Virus record (IMG/VR): IMGVR_UViG_3300028812_000021
Span: 1 to 22,379 of that record
DNA from: a virus
DNA: 22,379 nt
Strand: one strand, 5' to 3'
In this document: piece after piece, positions 2,426 through 22,305 of the stretch
How positions within the stretch are numbered: position 1 is the stretch's first letter
Layout of the letters: every line of letters begins with the position of its first letter
The notes under the pieces: generated by a model
Databases searched by the model: none
What the model saw: the letters and a program-made list of their open reading frames with translations, nothing else
What the model was told of the DNA's origin: nothing
Program-made: the position numbers and the translations under genes

Positions 2426-2508
2426 GTCTCACGCTCCCCGTAATGCTCGAGGAACGCCCACAGCGCCGCCGCTAGGGTGCAGGAAAGCAGAATGCCAAAC
2501 AGATCCAC
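2422..2508 (-). CDS. Very small membrane peptide, 28 aa
   Basis: GTG 2508 is preceded by AGGAGGAAG (2512-2520), one of the strongest ribosome binding sites in the window, and runs to a TGA that overlaps the GTG of the beta-helix gene (GTGA). The peptide has one hydrophobic stretch (LFGILLSCTLAAALWAFLE) and a charged tail (HYGERET). Its start lies inside the 3' end of the metalloprotease gene, where the binding site also codes Gly-Gly, so it could be chance. Possible roles are a small membrane protein or a leader that couples translation to the beta-helix gene. It is reported because of the binding site, the hydrophobicity and the exact coupling. Confidence 0.4.
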   Translation of the reverse strand: MDLFGILLSCTLAAALWAFLEHYGERET

Positions 2509-3362
2509 GCGCTTCCTCCTGCGTGTCTCCAGAACGTCGAACCCTTCATGTGGTAGGCGTTCTCGCGGTAGTTGAACCATTGCTCGCCACCCTCGACCGC
2601 GGTGACGAACGAAAATTCCTGCGTGCCGTTCGTGTGCACCCAGTTCCCCGGCGTGCCGTAGTAGGGGCTAGGTGTCGATGGGTTGTACTTCCACCCGCTC
2701 TCGAAGACCCACTCGTCGCCATCCCAGAAGGGAAAGACTGGGGGAGTCTGGGCGCCGCACCAGGTGGTCTTGATGATGGCGCAGCCGAGGTTCACGTCTC
2801 GCGGCTGGGGATACTTCACGAAGGGAGAGCCGCAGCTCATCACCGTGTCCGGCCGGAAGGTGCAGCCAATGGTCCCGCCCGAGTCCTTGTACTGCTCGTG
2901 CAGTCCTAGCAGGCCGTGGCCGAGTTCGTGGCCGAAGGCTGAGCGCCAGTCGGTGTAGCCCAGGCTCACCTTGTACTCGACCACTACCGGCCAGTTGGCG
3001 TAGAAGATGTGCGCCGCGCAGCCGTTGCAGGAGAACTCGGTAAGGTTGTGCTGCACCTGACAGCCGGTCGACGCCATCGACCCCCATGCGACGCGCTCGA
3101 AGCGGATGCCGACGTCGCGGGCATAGGCCGCGTGTACGTCCTCAAGCTGCGAGACGAAGTTCGGATATGTTTGACCAGTAGCATTGACACAGTATTTGAC
3201 GGTCTGTGTTTGAATGATGCTTTGCATCAAGGGGGTGTTCGGAACAAGCGGAAGGTACGTGAGGTGGTCAAACGCAGCCGTGCTGCGAACCTGCACAAAT
3301 AGTAAAATAGAGACGGCTACGGCGATTGCACCGCCGAGCCGCCAGACACCGGAAGGAGTAAT
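2472..3362 (-). CDS. Secreted metzincin-type zinc metalloprotease
   Basis: The full metzincin zinc motif HELGHGLLGLH (HExxHxxGxxH) is present, followed 20 residues after the last His by a Met-turn (TVMSCG). With the start at 3362 these are His145, Glu146, His149, His155 and Met175 of 296 residues. The N-terminus has a signal peptide or anchor (LGGAIAVAVSILLFVQV), then FDHLTYLPLVPN. Eleven Cys residues follow the anchor segment, which suggests disulfides outside the cell. The start is uncertain. The natural N-terminus would fall at ATT 3362 (giving TPSGVWRLGG), where no ATG, GTG or TTG exists. The next ATG is at 3452, inside the antisense of the HNH gene. It may digest a surface layer or proteins at exit. 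The protease assignment is firm; the role is inferred. Confidence 0.8.
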   Translation of the reverse strand: MTPSGVWRLGGAIAVAVSILLFVQVRSTAAFDHLTYLPLVPNTPLMQSIIQTQTVKYCVNATGQTYPNFVSQLEDVHAAYARDVGIRFERVAWGSMASTGCQVQHNLTEFSCNGCAAHIFYANWPVVVEYKVSLGYTDWRSAFGHELGHGLLGLHEQYKDSGGTIGCTFRPDTVMSCGSPFVKYPQPRDVNLGCAIIKTTWCGAQTPPVFPFWDGDEWVFESGWKYNPSTPSPYYGTPGNWVHTNGTQEFSFVTAVEGGEQWFNYRENAYHMKGSTFWRHAGGSAWICLAFCFPAP

Positions 3363-3368
3363 CTCCCG

Positions 3369-3881
3369 ATGCCCTCTCAGCCTACCATTCGCCCCTGCTC
3401 CGTTGAAGGCTGCGACCGCCCCTATCGCCGCAATGGGTACTGCGATCTTCATGCTCGCAGGATGCGAAACCATGGCGATGTGACCATCGTCCTGAAGACC
3501 GGCCCGAAGCCCCAACCGCGTGCCCCGAGACCGGTCGCTAGTCGATCCAATCGCATCGTGCATGGCTACGCGGTTTCGACCTTGGCTAAGCGACCACCGG
3601 AATACCAGTCGTGGGCGCATATGAATCAGCGCTGCCACAATCCCAATAGCGACGCCTACGCCTATTACGGCGGGCGCGGCATTACTGTCTGCGAACAATG
3701 GCGCGGGCGCGGCGGTTTCAGTAAGTTCTTGGCCGACATGGGGCCACGGCCTGAGGGCAAAACTCTGGATCGCATAGATAATGACAAGGGCTACTCCCCA
3801 GAGAATTGTCGATGGGCGACGTACAAGGAGCAGTCCGCCAACACGCGTCCTTACCCACAGATGCGCAAGCCGCGCGATTAA
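3369..3881 (+). CDS. HNH-like homing endonuclease with N-terminal zinc finger
   Basis: ATG 3369 follows GGAAGGAG with a 10-base spacer. The 170-residue product has an N-terminal Cys/His site (Cys10, Cys15, Cys25, His28; an EGCDRPYRRNGYC loop). Next comes the conserved block of a large phage endonuclease family: YQSWAHMNQRCHNP, YYGGRGITVCEQW (residues 99-111) and LDRIDNDKGYSPENCRWAT (residues 133-151). Free-standing genes of this type are selfish mobile elements that cut DNA at sites lacking them. It is the only well-supported plus-strand gene among the late genes. It abuts the metalloprotease start (7 bases away) and overlaps the next minus-strand gene tail to tail by 4 bases. TAAAAT at 3303-3308 could be its own -10 box. 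Confidence 0.85.
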   Translation: MPSQPTIRPCSVEGCDRPYRRNGYCDLHARRMRNHGDVTIVLKTGPKPQPRAPRPVASRSNRIVHGYAVSTLAKRPPEYQSWAHMNQRCHNPNSDAYAYYGGRGITVCEQWRGRGGFSKFLADMGPRPEGKTLDRIDNDKGYSPENCRWATYKEQSANTRPYPQMRKPRD

Positions 3882-4192
3882 CGAGGCCATCCCGGCACCT
3901 CCCCAGGGCTGAACTTGAACTGCGCCCCTTCGGTGTTGAGCTGCACGCCGTGGCCGAACGACCCGTCAGGATTGAGGACCACCAGCCAGTTATTGCGAGC
4001 GCAGGAGAGGACGATGGTGTGCTCGTCCGCGGTCGAGGTGTCTTCCCATCCGTCAGGGCAGGGAGCGTGGACTGCGGGCGTCGCTGGCGGCTTGTCCGTC
4101 ACCGCGGGCTCTACCAGCCCCACCGCCACGCCTGCGCCCACGACCAGGCCGGCGAGTGCCACAGCCGCCATCTTCATCAGGTCATCGCTCAT
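3878..4192 (-). CDS. Membrane-anchored small exported protein, 104 aa
   Basis: The ATG at 4192 overlaps the TGA of the upstream membrane/coiled-coil gene (ATGA), so the two are translationally coupled. An N-terminal hydrophobic segment (AAVALAGLVVGAGVAVGLV, residues 9-27) is followed by a Pro-rich spacer and a compact domain of about 65 residues. Two Cys (45 and 64) could form a disulfide outside the cell. There is no lipobox. Pairing with a coiled-coil membrane protein recalls holin/spanin-type lysis cassettes, but the sequence fits no family I know. The 3' end overlaps the stop of the plus-strand HNH gene by four bases. Confidence 0.65.
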   Translation of the reverse strand: MSDDLMKMAAVALAGLVVGAGVAVGLVEPAVTDKPPATPAVHAPCPDGWEDTSTADEHTIVLSCARNNWLVVLNPDGSFGHGVQLNTEGAQFKFSPGEVPGWPR

Positions 4193-4729: not shown

Positions 4730-6877
4730 CTAGTCCGGGTCAAACGTAATCTGAATATATGAGTCCTCCGTCGGGTTATAGCGATGGATCAGGTTCGGCC
4801 CGACCGTCCGATAGAACTTCGCCTTGACGCCCGTGTGTACTCCGTCGTCAAACTGCGCAGTAACGACGGGCACGATGCCCACGCCCTGGTCGTTGATGTC
4901 GCCGGGGTTTTCCATGAGCACAGGCACGCCGGGGTACTCGATGACACCGCCAGTACCGCCGGTGCCCTCAATCGCAACCATGTAAGTGCATGGCCCAGCC
5001 CCGAGCGGGTCTGCCCGCAGGCTCACGCGAGCCGTGACTGAGAACGTGCCGGCGCCCAGAGATGGGAGCGTGACGACATTCAAGGCTGGGGGAACCGTTG
5101 TCCAATCGTTGGGGTCGCTGATCTCAAAGTGCCAGATCGCGCTTCCCGTGATAGAGAGCGCGGGCACCATGAATGCGCCGAGGCGTACTGTGAGCGGCAC
5201 GGGTGGCGGGTAGTTCTCTTCGAACTCGTCCTCCGGCCCCTCTTCCTCGTCGTCGTTCGGGTCTTCGCAGCAGGGCTCAGAGCCTGGAGCGTCAGGCGTG
5301 CCGGGGTCGTCGGGACCGCCATCGTCGGGTGGCGGTAGGCTGATCTCCTCACCCGGCAGCCCAGGTACGGGGAACTCCATCACGGGCGCCTTGACCTTAT
5401 AAGACACGCGCCTGATGCCGGATGGGTGGCTCTCCTCGTGCCGTTCGGTGATCAGCATCCGCTTGTCGAGGTCGAGCCACACGACGGCGCCATCGACCGT
5501 CTGTACTTCGCCGTGGTACTCGACCACGCACTGATCGCCCGGGAGCGCCCAGATTTGCGCGCCGTTCGCCAAAGGCGGCAGCGTTAATTCGAGCATCTCG
5601 CTGCGGCGCTTGATCATCTCGTTGACGGCCTTCATGTAGAGGACGTTCGCCGCCTTCGTCCGCGACACGCTGTCGTCGTTGGGGTTCTTGACCTCCGAGA
5701 AGGTCAGGGTGACCTCAGTCAGCCCGTACTGGTCGATGCTGTCCTCGTCCTCGATGTAGTAATAGAGGGTCGCGTCCGGGTTGGCGCCGGCCTTGACCGT
5801 GTACGGCGATGAGAAGCTGGCGAACTGCAACGTCAGGTCGGCGCTGATTGTGCTCTCCGGGTCGTCTGGGTCTTCGATGGTGTCGACGCCCTTTGCGATG
5901 ATCCGGTTAACGAGGTTCGCCCCGGCGTAGCTCACCACTGGACGGCCGGCGATCAGCGCCACGCCTGAGCCGCCGTTCTCGTGGTCGTAGCGGTTCTCGT
6001 CAGGGTTCAGCGGGCGGAAGGTAATGCCGGAGTTAGGCGGGCCGTCGTAGGGCACGATCTCCGGGCGGTCGTGGTCCCAGCTCTCGCGGATGACGTGACG
6101 GCCCAGCGATGCGCCCCTTACCCACGCGGCGTACTTGGAGAGGTCGGTAAACGAACCCTTGACGTGCGAGTTGACCAGGCGGGCGAGGTCGTAATAGATC
6201 GGCCCGCCCGCAAGACTGCCGACAAGATCGACCGTGAGTGAATACAGACTTCCGTCGAACTCGTAGTTGCGCAGCACCGACCGGCGCACGATCTCGTAAG
6301 TTCGGAAGGAACCACGCATCGCGAGGAAGGACGCGCCGCCTTCGGTGATGCGGTAGGCCCTGTCTTCGACTATGCCCTGGTAGAGCAGGAAGCCTTCTTC
6401 GGGTGCGTGGTCGGGGTTGAAGTTCTCCTGCTGGATGGAAATCTTCCAGCCGTAGGTGATGTCCCGCGACAGCGGCACGCCTAGCGTGACGTCCTCATCG
6501 ACCGGGATGTCACACTCCCACTCGCCTACCTGGTTCTCGAATCGTGAGATGCGATAGCGCAGCGGGGTTAACGTTCCCTGCGCCACGCCCGAGGGGTTGT
6601 AAACCGTGACCGTGGACTCGCCGGGTTGCGGAGGAGCGAATAGCCTGAGTCCTGCCTCGACCTCGATCTCCATGTCGATGCTGCCGGTGAACTCGAAGTC
6701 CAGCCCGTCCGGGACGGGCGACTCTGCGAAGTCGATCTCCATGTCGATGGTGCCGACGTGTTCGAGGCGTATCGCAACGGGGGAGCTCAGTTCTATCTCA
6801 ATCCCGATTGAGCCCCCGACCTCGCCGGTATCGAAGATTTCAGCGTCGAAGATGCTGCCCTCGAAGATCGGAGGCAT
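4730..6877 (-). CDS. Tail-tip / baseplate protein (ReqiPepy6 Gp37-like), about 715 aa
   Basis: I prefer ATG 6877 (MPPIFEGSIF); TTG 6898 adds seven residues. Three near-repeats of the form G-S/T-I-x-M/I-E-I (GSIGIEIE, GTIDMEID, GSIDMEIE) open the protein. Then comes a region typical of siphovirus tail-tip proteins (about residues 90-210): VTVYNPSG, LRYRISRFENQVGEWECDIP, LLYQGIVEDRAY, FRTYEIVRRSVL. These are the elements of the Gp37-like / prophage endopeptidase-tail fold. After about residue 510 there is an acidic Pro/Asp linker containing a CC pair, then a beta-rich C-terminal domain, probably receptor-facing. It is the last gene of the tail operon. No peptidase motif is visible, so it is structural. 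Confidence 0.75.
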   Translation of the reverse strand: MPPIFEGSIFDAEIFDTGEVGGSIGIEIELSSPVAIRLEHVGTIDMEIDFAESPVPDGLDFEFTGSIDMEIEVEAGLRLFAPPQPGESTVTVYNPSGVAQGTLTPLRYRISRFENQVGEWECDIPVDEDVTLGVPLSRDITYGWKISIQQENFNPDHAPEEGFLLYQGIVEDRAYRITEGGASFLAMRGSFRTYEIVRRSVLRNYEFDGSLYSLTVDLVGSLAGGPIYYDLARLVNSHVKGSFTDLSKYAAWVRGASLGRHVIRESWDHDRPEIVPYDGPPNSGITFRPLNPDENRYDHENGGSGVALIAGRPVVSYAGANLVNRIIAKGVDTIEDPDDPESTISADLTLQFASFSSPYTVKAGANPDATLYYYIEDEDSIDQYGLTEVTLTFSEVKNPNDDSVSRTKAANVLYMKAVNEMIKRRSEMLELTLPPLANGAQIWALPGDQCVVEYHGEVQTVDGAVVWLDLDKRMLITERHEESHPSGIRRVSYKVKAPVMEFPVPGLPGEEISLPPPDDGGPDDPGTPDAPGSEPCCEDPNDDEEEGPEDEFEENYPPPVPLTVRLGAFMVPALSITGSAIWHFEISDPNDWTTVPPALNVVTLPSLGAGTFSVTARVSLRADPLGAGPCTYMVAIEGTGGTGGVIEYPGVPVLMENPGDINDQGVGIVPVVTAQFDDGVHTGVKAKFYRTVGPNLIHRYNPTEDSYIQITFDPD

Positions 6878-17480: not shown

Positions 17481-19334
17481 TTAGCCAGCCGTGTGACGGA
17501 TACCGGAGAGACCGATGGGGCGCAGCGCGTGCGTCGCGAAGTAACCGAACAGAGCGACCTCGATCATCTCAGGGCCGTACTTCTCTTCGAAACGGAACTG
17601 CAGAAGCGCGGACTCCCACGCCCAGGCGTCGGCCGAGTTGACGATGATCACGTCGGCGTCGCCGGCAGCGTTGCCGGTCATCGACCACGCGGGCACGAAG
17701 GGCAGGCCATCGATGGACCAGCCCTGCTGAACCGCGTTGCCAACGCCTGCACTGTTCGAGGCGCCGACAGACGGGAGCTGGAAGCGCCCATCCTCTGCGC
17801 TCTGAGCCGTGGCGAGCAGCGTCGTGGCCTCCTGAGACATCACCGCACCCGAGGGCGAAGCGAAGCGCCGGAAGGGGTACACCGCGAGGCGGTCACGGAT
17901 CTTGAGCAGGAGGTCGTTGCCGTCGCCAGAACTGACGTCTGCCTGACCGCCGGAGGGGACCTGCGTGCTCGTGATCACGCCGCCGACGCCATCCGTGCCG
18001 TTCAGCATGGTGTACGCCTTCGCCTCGGACTGCGCGTTGTAGGACTCACGCATCGCGGCAAAAGCGATCTGGTCGATGGCCGGGTTCGAGGAGTCGACCA
18101 TCTCGCGGGTCAACTGGATCGCACCGCTGATCGCCACCGGCGTAATCGTCTTCGTGTCGAAGGTGATGTTGCCGTGCGTCGGGTGAACACCTTCGGCGTG
18201 GTCGTTGGTCGCGTTCGTCTTCGTGGCGAACACCGGAACCGTGAAGGGCGTCGCGTTGGCGAGCTGGCCGCGGCTCAGGAGGTTGATGATCGGCCGGCCC
18301 TTCGTCAGTTCGCCGACGTAGAGGTCCGCACGATAGCCGGGGTTGATGATGTCGCCCTGGTCCGTCGTGTTGATCTCGAAGAACTGGCGCCGCTGGTACT
18401 CGACCGCGAACTGTGCCTGCTCGCGGTACTTGGAGATTCGCGCCGTGGCCTCCGGGTCGCGCCCGCCCTGAGACGATGCGTACCAGGCGTCACGCATGAG
18501 GCTGTGACCGAGGCCGTTGAAGTTGTAGATCGGCGGCTCGCGGTCGAGGGCGAACCGGGCAGCGCGTACCGAGCCCTTCGCGTACTGCGGGGCGTCGATC
18601 TTCTCCAGCGCCGACGTGAACGCCGAACTCATAGCGTTGGCGCCGTTCTCCATCGCCTTCGCGAGGGCGTCGGTGTTCTCCTTGAGAACGTCCTTGAGGA
18701 CTTCGCGGGTGAACTCGACCGCACGCTTGCGCTCGAACTCATTCGCCGGCTTGTCGAGGTCTTCGTTGACCAGTTCGTTTTCCGTGTTGTTAGCCATTTG
18801 CGGGGCTTCCTTCCTTAGCAGAACTTGAGGGGCTTCCTTGTGTGCGACGACCTTCTCGACACGGGCGTCATCGAACGCAGGAAACGCCGTCAGCGCCACG
18901 CCCGAGAGCGTGGCTTGGCGAACCAGGCGAACCGATCTGTCCGCTGGGTCTACGACCCATTCGTCTCCGTCGCGGAAATCGACCTCGATGGAGAACCCAT
19001 CCAGGACGTTGTTCTTTGCCAGTTGCAGAACGCGGTCGCCTTCCGGCACTTCCGCGATCTCGAACGTCACGTCCAGGCCGGCCGGGGTGGACTGGACGCG
19101 ACGCGCGACGCCGACAGGCTGTGACCTGTCGTGATTGAGGTTGAGCTTGATCCGGGAGATCAGCCCTTTGTCATAGCGAACGGAATCCTTCGCGAAGCGC
19201 CACTTCGCCATGCCGTTGTCAGCGACCATGCCCCACGGCAAAGCGATGCCAGAAATCGTCCGTTTCTCCGGGTTAACCCTGAAACTTGCAGCGACTTCCG
19301 CGGATTCGAACTGAATTACAGCGTTTTCGCTCAT
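17481..19334 (-). CDS. Prohead protease fused to major capsid protein, 617 aa
   Basis: ATG 19334 overlaps the TGA of the portal gene (ATGA). Residues 1-165 are an HK97-type prohead protease: RTISGIALPWG, NLNHDRSQPVG with catalytic His68, LDGFSIEVDF with catalytic Ser115, then LSGVALTAFPAFDDA. Residues about 180-255 are a charged helical region (ANEFERKRAVEFTREVLKD) resembling the delta/scaffold domain. From about 260 to 617 the chain is an HK97-fold capsid protein (INPGYRADLYVG, TFDTKTITPVAISGAIQLTR, ALFGYFATHALRPIGLSGI). There is no separate protease or scaffold gene. A strong internal start (ATG 18797) could give capsid protein without the protease. Confidence 0.9.
   Translation of the reverse strand: MSENAVIQFESAEVAASFRVNPEKRTISGIALPWGMVADNGMAKWRFAKDSVRYDKGLISRIKLNLNHDRSQPVGVARRVQSTPAGLDVTFEIAEVPEGDRVLQLAKNNVLDGFSIEVDFRDGDEWVVDPADRSVRLVRQATLSGVALTAFPAFDDARVEKVVAHKEAPQVLLRKEAPQMANNTENELVNEDLDKPANEFERKRAVEFTREVLKDVLKENTDALAKAMENGANAMSSAFTSALEKIDAPQYAKGSVRAARFALDREPPIYNFNGLGHSLMRDAWYASSQGGRDPEATARISKYREQAQFAVEYQRRQFFEINTTDQGDIINPGYRADLYVGELTKGRPIINLLSRGQLANATPFTVPVFATKTNATNDHAEGVHPTHGNITFDTKTITPVAISGAIQLTREMVDSSNPAIDQIAFAAMRESYNAQSEAKAYTMLNGTDGVGGVITSTQVPSGGQADVSSGDGNDLLLKIRDRLAVYPFRRFASPSGAVMSQEATTLLATAQSAEDGRFQLPSVGASNSAGVGNAVQQGWSIDGLPFVPAWSMTGNAAGDADVIIVNSADAWAWESALLQFRFEEKYGPEMIEVALFGYFATHALRPIGLSGIRHTAG
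18795..18816 (-). promoter_or_regulatory. Internal ribosome binding site and start for capsid-only product
   Basis: Inside the fusion gene, AAGGAAGGAAG (18806-18816) lies 8 bases before ATG 18797 (Met180, MANNTENELVN). The site is at the protease-capsid junction, in frame. It would give a 438-residue capsid protein lacking the protease and so set the ratio of fused to free capsid subunits. This fits the need for few proteases and many capsid proteins. Confidence 0.6.
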
Positions 19335-20557
19335 GTGCTTGCTCCTACTGCGGGGCGGGTGCCATTGCTCGAAGGAGACGACGGTGGGGTCTCCTTCGGG
19401 GCAATCGCCGCCTTCTCTGCGGCTGTTAGGGGCGGGCGGTCTTCGAGATCGCGTATCTCGTCCTGCGTGTAGGCGCCAACCTTCGCGCCGACTTCGTAGG
19501 CTTCCATGCGCGTCTTTGTGTCAGACCGGAGGAAGCTGTCGAGGTTTACCTTCGCTTCGTAGCCACGAGGCAGGACGTCGTTCATGGACAGGCGCTGCTC
19601 AAGGGCCGTCATGTAGGGCTTGAGGGTGAAGTCGATCAGCGCTCGGCGGCGGTCTTCGGAGTTCTGATAGGTGCGCGAGGTGGTCGAGACGCCGAGGTCT
19701 TCGGGGTCGATGCCTGTCGCCCTTGCGATCTCAAGGACGGCGTGCTGGACGCGCTCAGTGAGCTGAATCTCCGTCGCGTTCCACTGCAGGACTTTGGCTT
19801 CCCAACCGCCGCCGACGTAGCCCCACGCCTTCGTCCGGCGTGCCTTCTCCCATTCGTTCAGAAGCTCGTTGATCTCATCCGCCGTGAGTTCGGTGGTGCC
19901 TTCCTTCGGCGTGAACACGCCCTGAGGCATGGGAGACTCGGAGTAGATCGTTGCCGTCTGCTCCAGCTTGAGGCAGGTCCGAATCGCCCGCGCTGCGTGC
20001 CTGAGTAGGGGCGGGTTCGGGGAGTCGAACCGAATGATCTCTTCGTCCCTTACAGGCTGGCCGTCGATGAACACCTGACCGTTAGCAGGGAAGTGCTGGT
20101 CAGCCGTGACGTTCTGGACGGCCGGCATCCCGCCACGCCCTGCGACGTGAACGCTGGTGATCGGGACGTGGTAAGCAGAAATCGGGAAGCCCGCGAAGTT
20201 GAAGGCGAGCACGCGCCACCAGGAGACGCCCTCGAAGAGCAGGTCCTCGTATGTCTCCGTCAGCGTTACGGCGTTCGGCACGTCGGGGTCGATCTGGTCG
20301 AGTAGGGACGTGGGGTGCGCGAGGTGCTTTTCTTTGTCGCGGACGTGAATCGGCAGGGAGCCCAGCGTGCCGGCGATCAGGTTGCGCGACCGCAGCACGG
20401 CGGGCACCTGGAGGGCTTCGGCACGGGAGACGCGCGGGGCGATCTGGCCTCCGCCGGTCATGCCCTGCAACATTTCGGGCGGGACGGTGACGGTGAACTG
20501 CGCCGCCGGGGGTGGGGCTGCTAGTTCTACGGGCTTGCGTGTGAAGGGTAAACGCAA
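19331..20557 (-). CDS. HK97-type portal protein, 408 aa
   Basis: TTG 20557 is preceded by GGGAGG nine bases upstream; no better start is seen until Met29, which has no binding site. Portal-typical blocks occur in order: AEALQVPAVLRSRNLIAGTL, GSLPIHVRDKEK, LFEGVSWWRVL, YHVPITSVHV, EIIRFDSPNPPLL, and a C-terminal GIDPEDLGVSTTSRTYQNSE block followed by TLKPYMTALEQRL. The dodecameric ring is the DNA entry and exit site of the head. The length is normal for the HK97 gp3 class. The start lies next to a hairpin that hides the binding site, so its translation may be regulated. Confidence 0.88.
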   Translation of the reverse strand: MRLPFTRKPVELAAPPPAAQFTVTVPPEMLQGMTGGGQIAPRVSRAEALQVPAVLRSRNLIAGTLGSLPIHVRDKEKHLAHPTSLLDQIDPDVPNAVTLTETYEDLLFEGVSWWRVLAFNFAGFPISAYHVPITSVHVAGRGGMPAVQNVTADQHFPANGQVFIDGQPVRDEEIIRFDSPNPPLLRHAARAIRTCLKLEQTATIYSESPMPQGVFTPKEGTTELTADEINELLNEWEKARRTKAWGYVGGGWEAKVLQWNATEIQLTERVQHAVLEIARATGIDPEDLGVSTTSRTYQNSEDRRRALIDFTLKPYMTALEQRLSMNDVLPRGYEAKVNLDSFLRSDTKTRMEAYEVGAKVGAYTQDEIRDLEDRPPLTAAEKAAIAPKETPPSSPSSNGTRPAVGAST

Positions 20558-20559
20558 AA

Positions 20560-20590
20560 ACGCGGTCCTCCCGTTACGGAAGGGCCGCGT
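20560..20590 (-). promoter_or_regulatory. RBS-sequestering hairpin / terminator-like element before the portal gene
   Basis: On the minus-strand RNA, ACGCGG pairs with CCGCGU and CCUUCC pairs with GGGAGG (one G-U pair) around a GUAAC loop, with one C-A mismatch between the two stems: 12 pairs in all. GGGAGG is the portal ribosome binding site. Just 3' of the stem a run of T (20556-20560) leads into the TTG start. It could be an intrinsic terminator, an attenuator, or a translation switch. Confidence 0.65.
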
Positions 20591-20656
20591 AAACCGCTAG
20601 GGTGGGCCGCTAATGGCTAATGCGCCATATCCACTGCCTAAGATAACATGTCTACA

Positions 20657-20815
20657 CTAGTTTGCAATCCTTGTTACCCTGACCGATTTCACCATGTTTA
20701 CCGTCTTGCAGTACCGGCACTTGATCTGAGCTTCGCCGCGGACGTCGATCACGGGCAGGACCTTACCGCACCCAGGATTCACGCACCGCCAAACCGTCTG
20801 CGCTGTCGCGTTCAT
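20657..20815 (-). CDS. Com-like zinc-finger protein, 52 aa
   Basis: The ATG at 20815 overlaps the TGA of the large terminase gene (ATGA). The 52 residues contain Cys11-x4-Cys16 (WRCVNPGCGKVL) and Cys33-x2-Cys36 (IKCRYCKTVNMVK) with a short hydrophobic middle, the pattern of Mu Com and its phage relatives. In Mu, Com is an RNA-binding translation activator of mom that opens a hairpin hiding the ribosome binding site. Here a hairpin covering the portal binding site lies 66 bases downstream, so a similar role is plausible. DNA binding is an alternative. Fold assignment is good; function is inferred. Confidence 0.7.
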   Translation of the reverse strand: MNATAQTVWRCVNPGCGKVLPVIDVRGEAQIKCRYCKTVNMVKSVRVTRIAN

Positions 20816-22305
20816 TGGGCACTCCCCACCACGACCATCGGCCGTCTCACCGGAGGCAGCGTTCTCGCCAGATGCACCGCGCCCGCCGTCGCATACGCCG
20901 CGTTTACGTGCGCGTTCTTGCGCGTGAATACCCAGCCATCGCCTCGAGGCAGCTTCTCGGCGCCCTGGACGTGAACATCGAGCAGCGGGTCGCCTGAGTG
21001 CGCCACCTGGTGCGCTGTAACCTGCTCGGCGAAGCCCATGCATACCGCCGTCATCTCGCCGCGCATCGGCTCGACTAGCACGCCCCGCGGAGGCCAGTTC
21101 CTGCGTTCGGCCATGTCTGCCGCGAATGCTGCCGCTGGACCGCCGGGGAACCATCCCAGCACCACGGGCTTGACCCGCAGCACGATCTCCACGAGGTCTT
21201 TGCGCATGTCGTTGATGCACGTCGGCCCTTCCCACGCTGCCACCGGCTCGACGCGCACGCGGTTGTCTGACAGCACCGCCGCGGCATACAGCGCCGCGTG
21301 CTGGAGGTCGAGGGAGATGTCCAGGCAGAGCGCCACCCGGTCCCGATGGGCGGTGAGGTCGCCGACGTCGAGGCACGCAGCCCAATCGACGGGGTTGATC
21401 GCCGGGTTGAGCATGGGGACGTGGCGGCACTGGTGTTCGGTAAGGAACTGCGCCAGTTGTTCGCCGCCGGCTTCCTTCGCCCTGCGTGCCTGCCCGACCA
21501 GCGAGTCGAGCGAGATGCGTATGCCGAGGCTGGGATTCGCCATCGCCAGCGCTTCCGCGTCGTCGGCTTCCGCCCCGTCAGGCGCCGACCACTCGAAGAT
21601 GCCTAATCGCGGGTCTGAGTCCTTGATCGCCTGCTCTCTGAGGGAGTTCAGCACGACGCTTTTGTCGTCTCCCGCGTTCGTGATCATCCAGACCTGAGAA
21701 TCCCACACCGCCGACGTCGCGGGCACCGCAGCAGAATAGGCGGTCCAGTCGTGATGTTCGCGCAGTTCGTCCATGATCAGGCGGTCGACCGTGAGTGATC
21801 GACCACCTTTGCGGTTCGACGCTGCGATCTTGTACCGCCCACCCCTGGAGACCGTTAGCGTCTGTTCGCCGTTCGCGCGCCGGATGCCGTTCTTCGCGAT
21901 CTCTTTCGCGAGGTCTTCGTTGTCCTCGGCCAGCGTGACGGCCTTCTCCCACGATTCGCGGGCGTAGTCGAGGTTCGTGGACGTTCCCAGCACCAGCCGG
22001 ACCATCTCGACGTAGAGCCAGAACAGGGAGAGGATGACCAGCAGTTCGGTCTTCCCGTTCTGACGCGCCACCAGGACGAGCACTTCGTGAAAGCGCGGGC
22101 GCCCGTCCTCGAGCAGTTCGAGCGCGTGGATAACAAGCCACTCCTGCCACGGGTCCAGCGGACGTTTCAGGACGTCGCGGGCGAACTCGATCACCTCGAA
22201 GCCCAGCGACGTCTCAGGCGTCAGCTTGCGCCGCTCAGCCGTGAATAAGCGAGGCTCGGTTTTGCCGACGATCTCGGAGTTCGTCCAGTTTAGTAGCGCC
22301 GTCAA
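20812..22305 (-). CDS. terL: Terminase large subunit, 497 aa
   Basis: TTG 22305 has GAGGAAGGG six bases upstream. The N-terminal ATPase has a classic actinophage/HK97-type layout: ERRKLTPETSLGFEVIEFA, WQEWLVIHALELLEDG, a Walker A variant at residues 80-86 (ARQNGKT), Walker B LIMDE at residues 176-180, and the coupling motif WMITNAG around 207-213. The C-terminal half is the RNase H-like nuclease, with VALCLDISLD supplying the first acidic residue. With the small subunit it cuts and pumps phage DNA into the head. The 497-residue length is normal. The first 24 codons overlap the 3' end of the probable small terminase gene. Confidence 0.92.
   Translation of the reverse strand: MTALLNWTNSEIVGKTEPRLFTAERRKLTPETSLGFEVIEFARDVLKRPLDPWQEWLVIHALELLEDGRPRFHEVLVLVARQNGKTELLVILSLFWLYVEMVRLVLGTSTNLDYARESWEKAVTLAEDNEDLAKEIAKNGIRRANGEQTLTVSRGGRYKIAASNRKGGRSLTVDRLIMDELREHHDWTAYSAAVPATSAVWDSQVWMITNAGDDKSVVLNSLREQAIKDSDPRLGIFEWSAPDGAEADDAEALAMANPSLGIRISLDSLVGQARRAKEAGGEQLAQFLTEHQCRHVPMLNPAINPVDWAACLDVGDLTAHRDRVALCLDISLDLQHAALYAAAVLSDNRVRVEPVAAWEGPTCINDMRKDLVEIVLRVKPVVLGWFPGGPAAAFAADMAERRNWPPRGVLVEPMRGEMTAVCMGFAEQVTAHQVAHSGDPLLDVHVQGAEKLPRGDGWVFTRKNAHVNAAYATAGAVHLARTLPPVRRPMVVVGSAQ

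Follow-up and report, generated by a model that had tools for sequence, protein, structure and literature searches.

In the known cases, genes for Com-type proteins stand before DNA-modification genes. In most of the phage records viewed, PAN70 included, the gene after the Com-type one is likewise a DNA methyltransferase gene or mom, whereas in the clade described here it is a head gene. Com-methyltransferase pairs, such as those of B3, KS5, Mana, Chuche, and 2F_1, resemble the present locus in that the Com-type gene lies directly before its presumed target, within late operons; however, the target there is a DNA methyltransferase, while here it is the portal or the head protease. Late-gene attenuators that work with antitermination, namely those of lambda Q and Xp10 P7, share with this locus a promoter, a short leader, and a terminator before the structural genes, and a small phage protein serves to open the terminator. 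This likeness is one of layout, and the present stem differs in that it also hides the Shine-Dalgarno (SD) sequence and in that the start codon lies in the T-run. The Com protein of phage Mu, which has four Cys and binds RNA, opens a hairpin in the mom mRNA that inhibits translation; the SELEX motif of Com is GAGNNCC (PMC6483171). The com-mom system (PHROG 6417 / PF10122) is similar to the locus reported here in having a small four-Cys zinc protein encoded just upstream and a hairpin in which the start region of the following gene is hidden. The differences are that the downstream gene here is a head gene and not a DNA-modification gene, that the leader carries a T-run and usually a promoter-like site, and that the Com-type ORFs do not overlap the target gene. 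In the collection of papers searched, no account of structural genes under Com-type control came up.

The locus is part of a 22,379-base fragment, held as an IMG/VR virus record, of a phage at 63% GC; this whole stretch is referred to as the window. On its minus strand the gene order is TerL, a 52-aa four-Cys ORF, a leader of about 100 nt, the portal gene, and a protease-capsid fusion (Table 1). The assignments of portal and TerL were upheld by Pfam and PHROG profiles. The TTG is the likely portal start, because upstream of it the portal frame runs into a TAG stop without passing a start codon. Given the ATGA overlap with the TerL stop, the Com-type ORF is probably translated by coupling to TerL.

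Table 1. Features between TerL and the head genes of the window, listed in the direction of transcription.
Feature	Position	Strand	Basis
TerL gene	20812..22305	-	PHROG 9, E 8e-77; stop overlaps the Com-type gene start (ATGA)
Com-type zinc-ribbon gene, 52 aa, four Cys	20657..20815	-	PHROG 6417, E 1e-4; homologues in the same position in L009, L012, L149, L151, L157
Weak promoter-like site TTGCAA-16-TATCTT, end of the Com-type gene	20640..20667	-	Putative, by analogy with the TTGACA sites of relatives
Arm 1, TTAGCGGCCCACCC	20600..20613	-	Near-copy of the hairpin 5' arm, upstream of it; kept in L009 and L012 (alignments)
Terminator-like hairpin sequestering the portal SD	20560..20590	-	Folds; compensatory changes
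SD GGGAGG, in the hairpin 3' arm	20567..20572	-	Pairing probability 1.0
T-run straight after the stem, overlapping the TTG start	20556..20560	-	Sequence; same in L009, L012, L149, L151
Portal gene, TTG start (20557-20555)	19331..20557	-	Pfam PF04860, E 2.5e-38; PHROG 12
Fused head-maturation protease and capsid gene, next in the head block	17481..19334	-	Pfam Peptidase_S78 and Phage_capsid

The sequence-only reading had proposed a 12-pair hairpin with one mismatch that buries GGGAGG and is followed by a T-run. The hairpin was borne out with a slightly longer stem: ACGCGG-C-CCUUCCG (UAA) CGGGAGG-A-CCGCGU contains 13 pairs, one of them G-U, and one C.A mismatch, and it is followed by UUUUUG, the portal TTG sitting inside the T-run. 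GGGAGG lies wholly within the 3' arm, 9 nt before the TTG, and is fully paired on average (Table 1). Folding of the 121-nt leader gave -42.5 kcal/mol against -34.3 +/- 3.4 kcal/mol for shuffled sequences (z -2.4), with no sign of a weak fold. By raw energy the portal hairpin ranks only ninth among the distinct hairpins of its own strand, because GC-rich coding DNA has other hairpins. The portal start is the most structured of the 26 starts examined in the window, and control starts that were equally stable and equally buried made up 0.65% of 463. The complete pattern of hairpin, SD, T-run, and start codon had 20 occurrences in 1.51 Mb of sense-strand sequence (1.3 per 100 kb), and a search of Rfam returned sub-threshold chance matches only.

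The protein encoded ahead of this hairpin has the Cys pattern C-x4-C ... C-x2-C. Beyond its match to PHROG 6417, annotated as 'translational regulator', it matches Pfam Com PF10122 weakly (E 0.02, below the curated cut-off), and its similarity to Mu Com itself is remote (39% identity over 28 residues). Its proposed kinship with Mu Com gained support from a profile-profile comparison, in which the family profile matched the Mu-type Com profile with an hhalign probability of 97%, bearing in mind that zinc ribbons are generic, that generic ones also score against Com profiles, and that single members score weakly. The four Cys are invariant in six members, four of which are matched by Com PHROGs (best E 2e-6). 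A fold search with an AlphaFold model of the protein (mean pLDDT 72) gave nothing significant. GAGNNCC, the SELEX motif, occurs where the SD is buried in the window and in two relatives, L009 and L012, but is given little weight because any GAG-containing SD supplies half of it. Neither the leader nor the L012 Com-type protein had a relative among phage isolates, and the window protein had a weak match only, within a glycosyltransferase gene on the opposite strand. Weak Com-profile matches in L129 and L130 were unrelated ORFs, and a Com-like ORF in L008, some 11 nt ahead of a presumed tail gene, has no hairpin of this kind.

Among the closest portal relatives (about 90 loci), a Com-type ORF ahead of the portal gene was absent throughout, and portal homologues at 46-65% identity are without the unit. 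In many of these relatives TerL directly adjoins the portal start or runs into it, so that the portal family offers no test of the hairpin. The Com-leader unit is therefore an insertion or replacement at the point where TerL meets the portal gene. Relatives of the unit came from a Com-family profile search over 50 related virus records (L012), a scan of loci (L009), and a TerL-profile scan (L149, L151, L157, and L153); every member of the clade is a metagenomic fragment. When the leader was sought by DNA pattern, L012 was the sole true match, those in L132-L146 being chance, and TerL relatives in Micromonospora and other Actinomycetota genomes reached at most 57%.

The TerL proteins of L009 and L012 are 63-70% identical to that of the window, whereas the portals are only 27% identical. 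In both relatives the Com-type ORF comes after the portal gene (5902-6072 in L009 and 3843-4004 in L012), and their leaders are 74-76% identical to the window's, with 74-90% leader identity across the three. These leaders contain TTAG(C/A)GGCCC(A/G)CCC, then the hairpin GGCCCUUCG-GAAA-CGGAGGGCC, a T-run, and a TTG that starts the head-maturation protease. The same leader and start codon therefore stand before two unrelated head genes, the portal in the window and the protease in L009 and L012. The earlier suggestion that the protein may control portal translation is partly supported, in that the SD-hiding hairpin travels with the Com-type gene; however, since the unit precedes the head-maturation protease in relatives, its target is not the portal as such. 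The rule common to these targets is that each opens the head block. The same relatives bear on whether the Com-type protein could be a packaging accessory that serves TerL with no tie to the leader. Its start overlaps the TerL stop in the window, and small CxxC...HxxxH proteins occupy that place in other actinophages, but relatives of the same TerL clade have the ORF after the portal and not after TerL, still adjoining the hairpin, which makes this role very improbable.

Compensatory changes at the sequence level, sought as a check on the hairpin, were present in the three homologous leaders (window, L009, and L012, two of them closely related) in a hand alignment, MAFFT shifting the hairpin by one pair. 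Between the window and L009 one pair is altered on both sides (C-G to A-U), and the stem of the window is longer by one complete C-G pair. The C.A mismatch of the window is a C-G pair in the other leaders, with an intermediate C.U in L012. The regulators themselves diverge strongly: L009 and L012 are 96% identical in the portal protein and 98.6% in the protease DNA on the two sides, but their Com-type proteins are only 40% identical. Both 5' arms change jointly (GAGG in L009, GCGG in L012), and the 3' arm is unchanged. Exchange of protein and site as a pair could explain this divergence, in what is one case that could also be drift. In its own right, the comparison of the two ORFs shows a regulator that is fast-changing or has been exchanged between near-identical flanks. 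With somewhat less than even confidence, we propose that the Com-leader cassette recombines, the fast-changing zinc protein and its leader sites being swapped as a pair before the gene that opens the head block and serving as a timing switch, which would give the Com family a role beyond DNA modification.

The variability of the Com-type ORF, far above that of its neighbours in L009 and L012, would also be expected of a passenger, that is, a moron with its own terminator between late genes, where the terminator overlaps the next start for lack of space and nothing is regulated; Com-methyltransferase pairs are indeed inserted in late operons of many phages. However, such a terminator would silence the essential head block, there being no space for a promoter after it, and the SD and start codon move with the leader to unrelated genes. 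In addition, the SD is buried in L157, which has no T-run, and we consider a passenger improbable.

The wider clade (L149, L151, L157, and L153) repeats the design with other hairpin sequences. L149 and L151 have a Com-type ORF, a hairpin, a T-run, and the TTG of the protease, while L157 has a Com-type ORF and the SD GAGAGG buried in a hairpin before an ATG. In L153 a zinc ribbon is followed, after a gap of about 1.2 kb, by a promoter-like site, a buried SD, and the protease TTG, with TTT only in place of the T-run. L011 has the promoter-like site, hairpin, T-run, and protease TTG without a zinc-ribbon ORF, and its leader is perhaps an RNA-only version; this leader (6186-6358, about 170 nt) contains several hairpins from the TTGACA site to the terminator-like, SD-holding hairpin before the head protease. 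Neither a zinc-ribbon ORF nor a buried SD was seen in L010, L013, L152, L154, L155, and L156. Within the clade, a zinc-ribbon ORF went with a buried SD in 7/7 versus 1/7 (Fisher p 0.005, kinship not corrected), and the element of hairpin, SD, T-run, and start codon was found within 160 nt of five of the six Com-type ORFs, where 0.002 per ORF would be expected. In an unrelated podophage, L131, a 709-aa portal-like gene (as read from its translation) precedes a 35-aa ORF of Com type, which is followed by a 14-pair stem, TTTTTT, and ATG.

That a zinc-finger/hairpin unit recurs ahead of head genes of different kinds suggests that it times the onset of head building. Whether the Com-type gene acts together with its leader as a single regulatory unit gating head-gene translation is, on comparative sequence evidence, an evenly balanced judgement. 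The Com-type protein would be made by coupling to translation of TerL or of the portal, and until it binds the leader the closed hairpin would keep the head block untranslated. Its predicted binding would open the stem and free the SD, as Mu Com does for mom. The closed hairpin may also end transcription, as most versions have the T-run, and opening may then act twice. As an outcome, the head genes would come on only once the preceding gene and the regulator had been made.

The same elements could instead form a transcriptional attenuator. In five members (L009, L012, L149, L151, and L157), TTGACA or TTGACT lies no more than 50 nt from the stop of the Com-type gene, against a background of 0.26 per kb of sense strand, followed by CATAAT 18 nt downstream in L157 and by TAGATT in L009 and L012; the window's own site has a poor -35. 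From a promoter upstream of the hairpin, transcription must pass the hairpin to reach the head genes, and a promoter ahead of a terminator is sensible only if the terminator is conditional. A GC-rich stem passes directly into a T-run in the window, L009, L012, L149, L151, L011, and L131. Attenuation is a real rival because most members have a terminator-like hairpin, whose T-run fits termination at least equally well, and most have a promoter-like site between it and the Com-type gene. In this reading, transcription starting where the Com-type gene ends would yield a short leader RNA that stops at the hairpin, antitermination would fall to the zinc protein or to some other phage factor, and SD burial would be a by-product of compact design. 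However, L157 and L153 do not have such a T-run and both still bury the SD, and the Com-type proteins studied so far work on translation (PMC6483171). We regard attenuation as the sole mechanism as rather unlikely. Translation control is favoured, with attenuation as a possible second layer, because the SD is buried in all members and the T-run is present only in most.

Arm 1 raises the further question of an RNA-only switch, in which it would compete with the hairpin 5' arm for the SD arm while the zinc protein is a bystander. Pairing of arm 1 with the SD arm exceeds that of shuffled sequences in L009 (p 0.002), L151 (p <0.002), L012 (p 0.016), and L157 (p 0.04), L153 has a perfect 10-pair partner, and L011 manages without a zinc ribbon. 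However, neither the window (p 0.16) nor L011 shows significant pairing, arm 1 overlaps the promoter in L153, and both pairings hide the SD, so that a switch of this kind is hardly probable. If translation control by the Com-type protein is correct, gating of the portal or head protease would represent a small, portable, protein-operated RNA switch that orders virion assembly, and it would offer a role for some of the many small zinc-ribbon ORFs among phage late genes.

Two more small CxxC ORFs lie at the other end of the window on the minus strand (1182-1490 and 569-781), with no confident family. The minus-strand ORF at 2472-3890 contains HELGHGLLGLHE, an HExxHxxGxxH zinc-metallopeptidase-like motif, its C-terminal part being without a Pfam match, and inside it, on the plus strand (3369-3881), lies a 170-aa ORF with a Cys/His-rich start and the look of a putative homing endonuclease, without a confident Pfam match.

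A structured portal start was also observed as a separate case in Decurrovirus, where Kels and Maggie, like the window, encode a small putative zinc protein downstream of TerL and have a strong hairpin where the portal gene starts, with an A-U/G-C compensatory change. They differ in that the protein, located between TerL and portal, is of CxxC...HxxxxH and not Com type, that the hairpin holds the AUG, and that there is no T-run and no sequence homology. The 13-pair hairpin in Kels (L022, 2078-2110), and at the same place in Maggie (L024), holds the annotated portal AUG, with an A-U to G-C double change between them. A hypothetical CxxC...HxxxH protein is encoded directly after TerL, mostly overlapping its stop, in the small actinophages Emperor (L021, 1859-2137), Schiebs (L029, 1352-1597), SallySpecial (L030, 1285-1536), and RRH1 (L031, 1275-1607).
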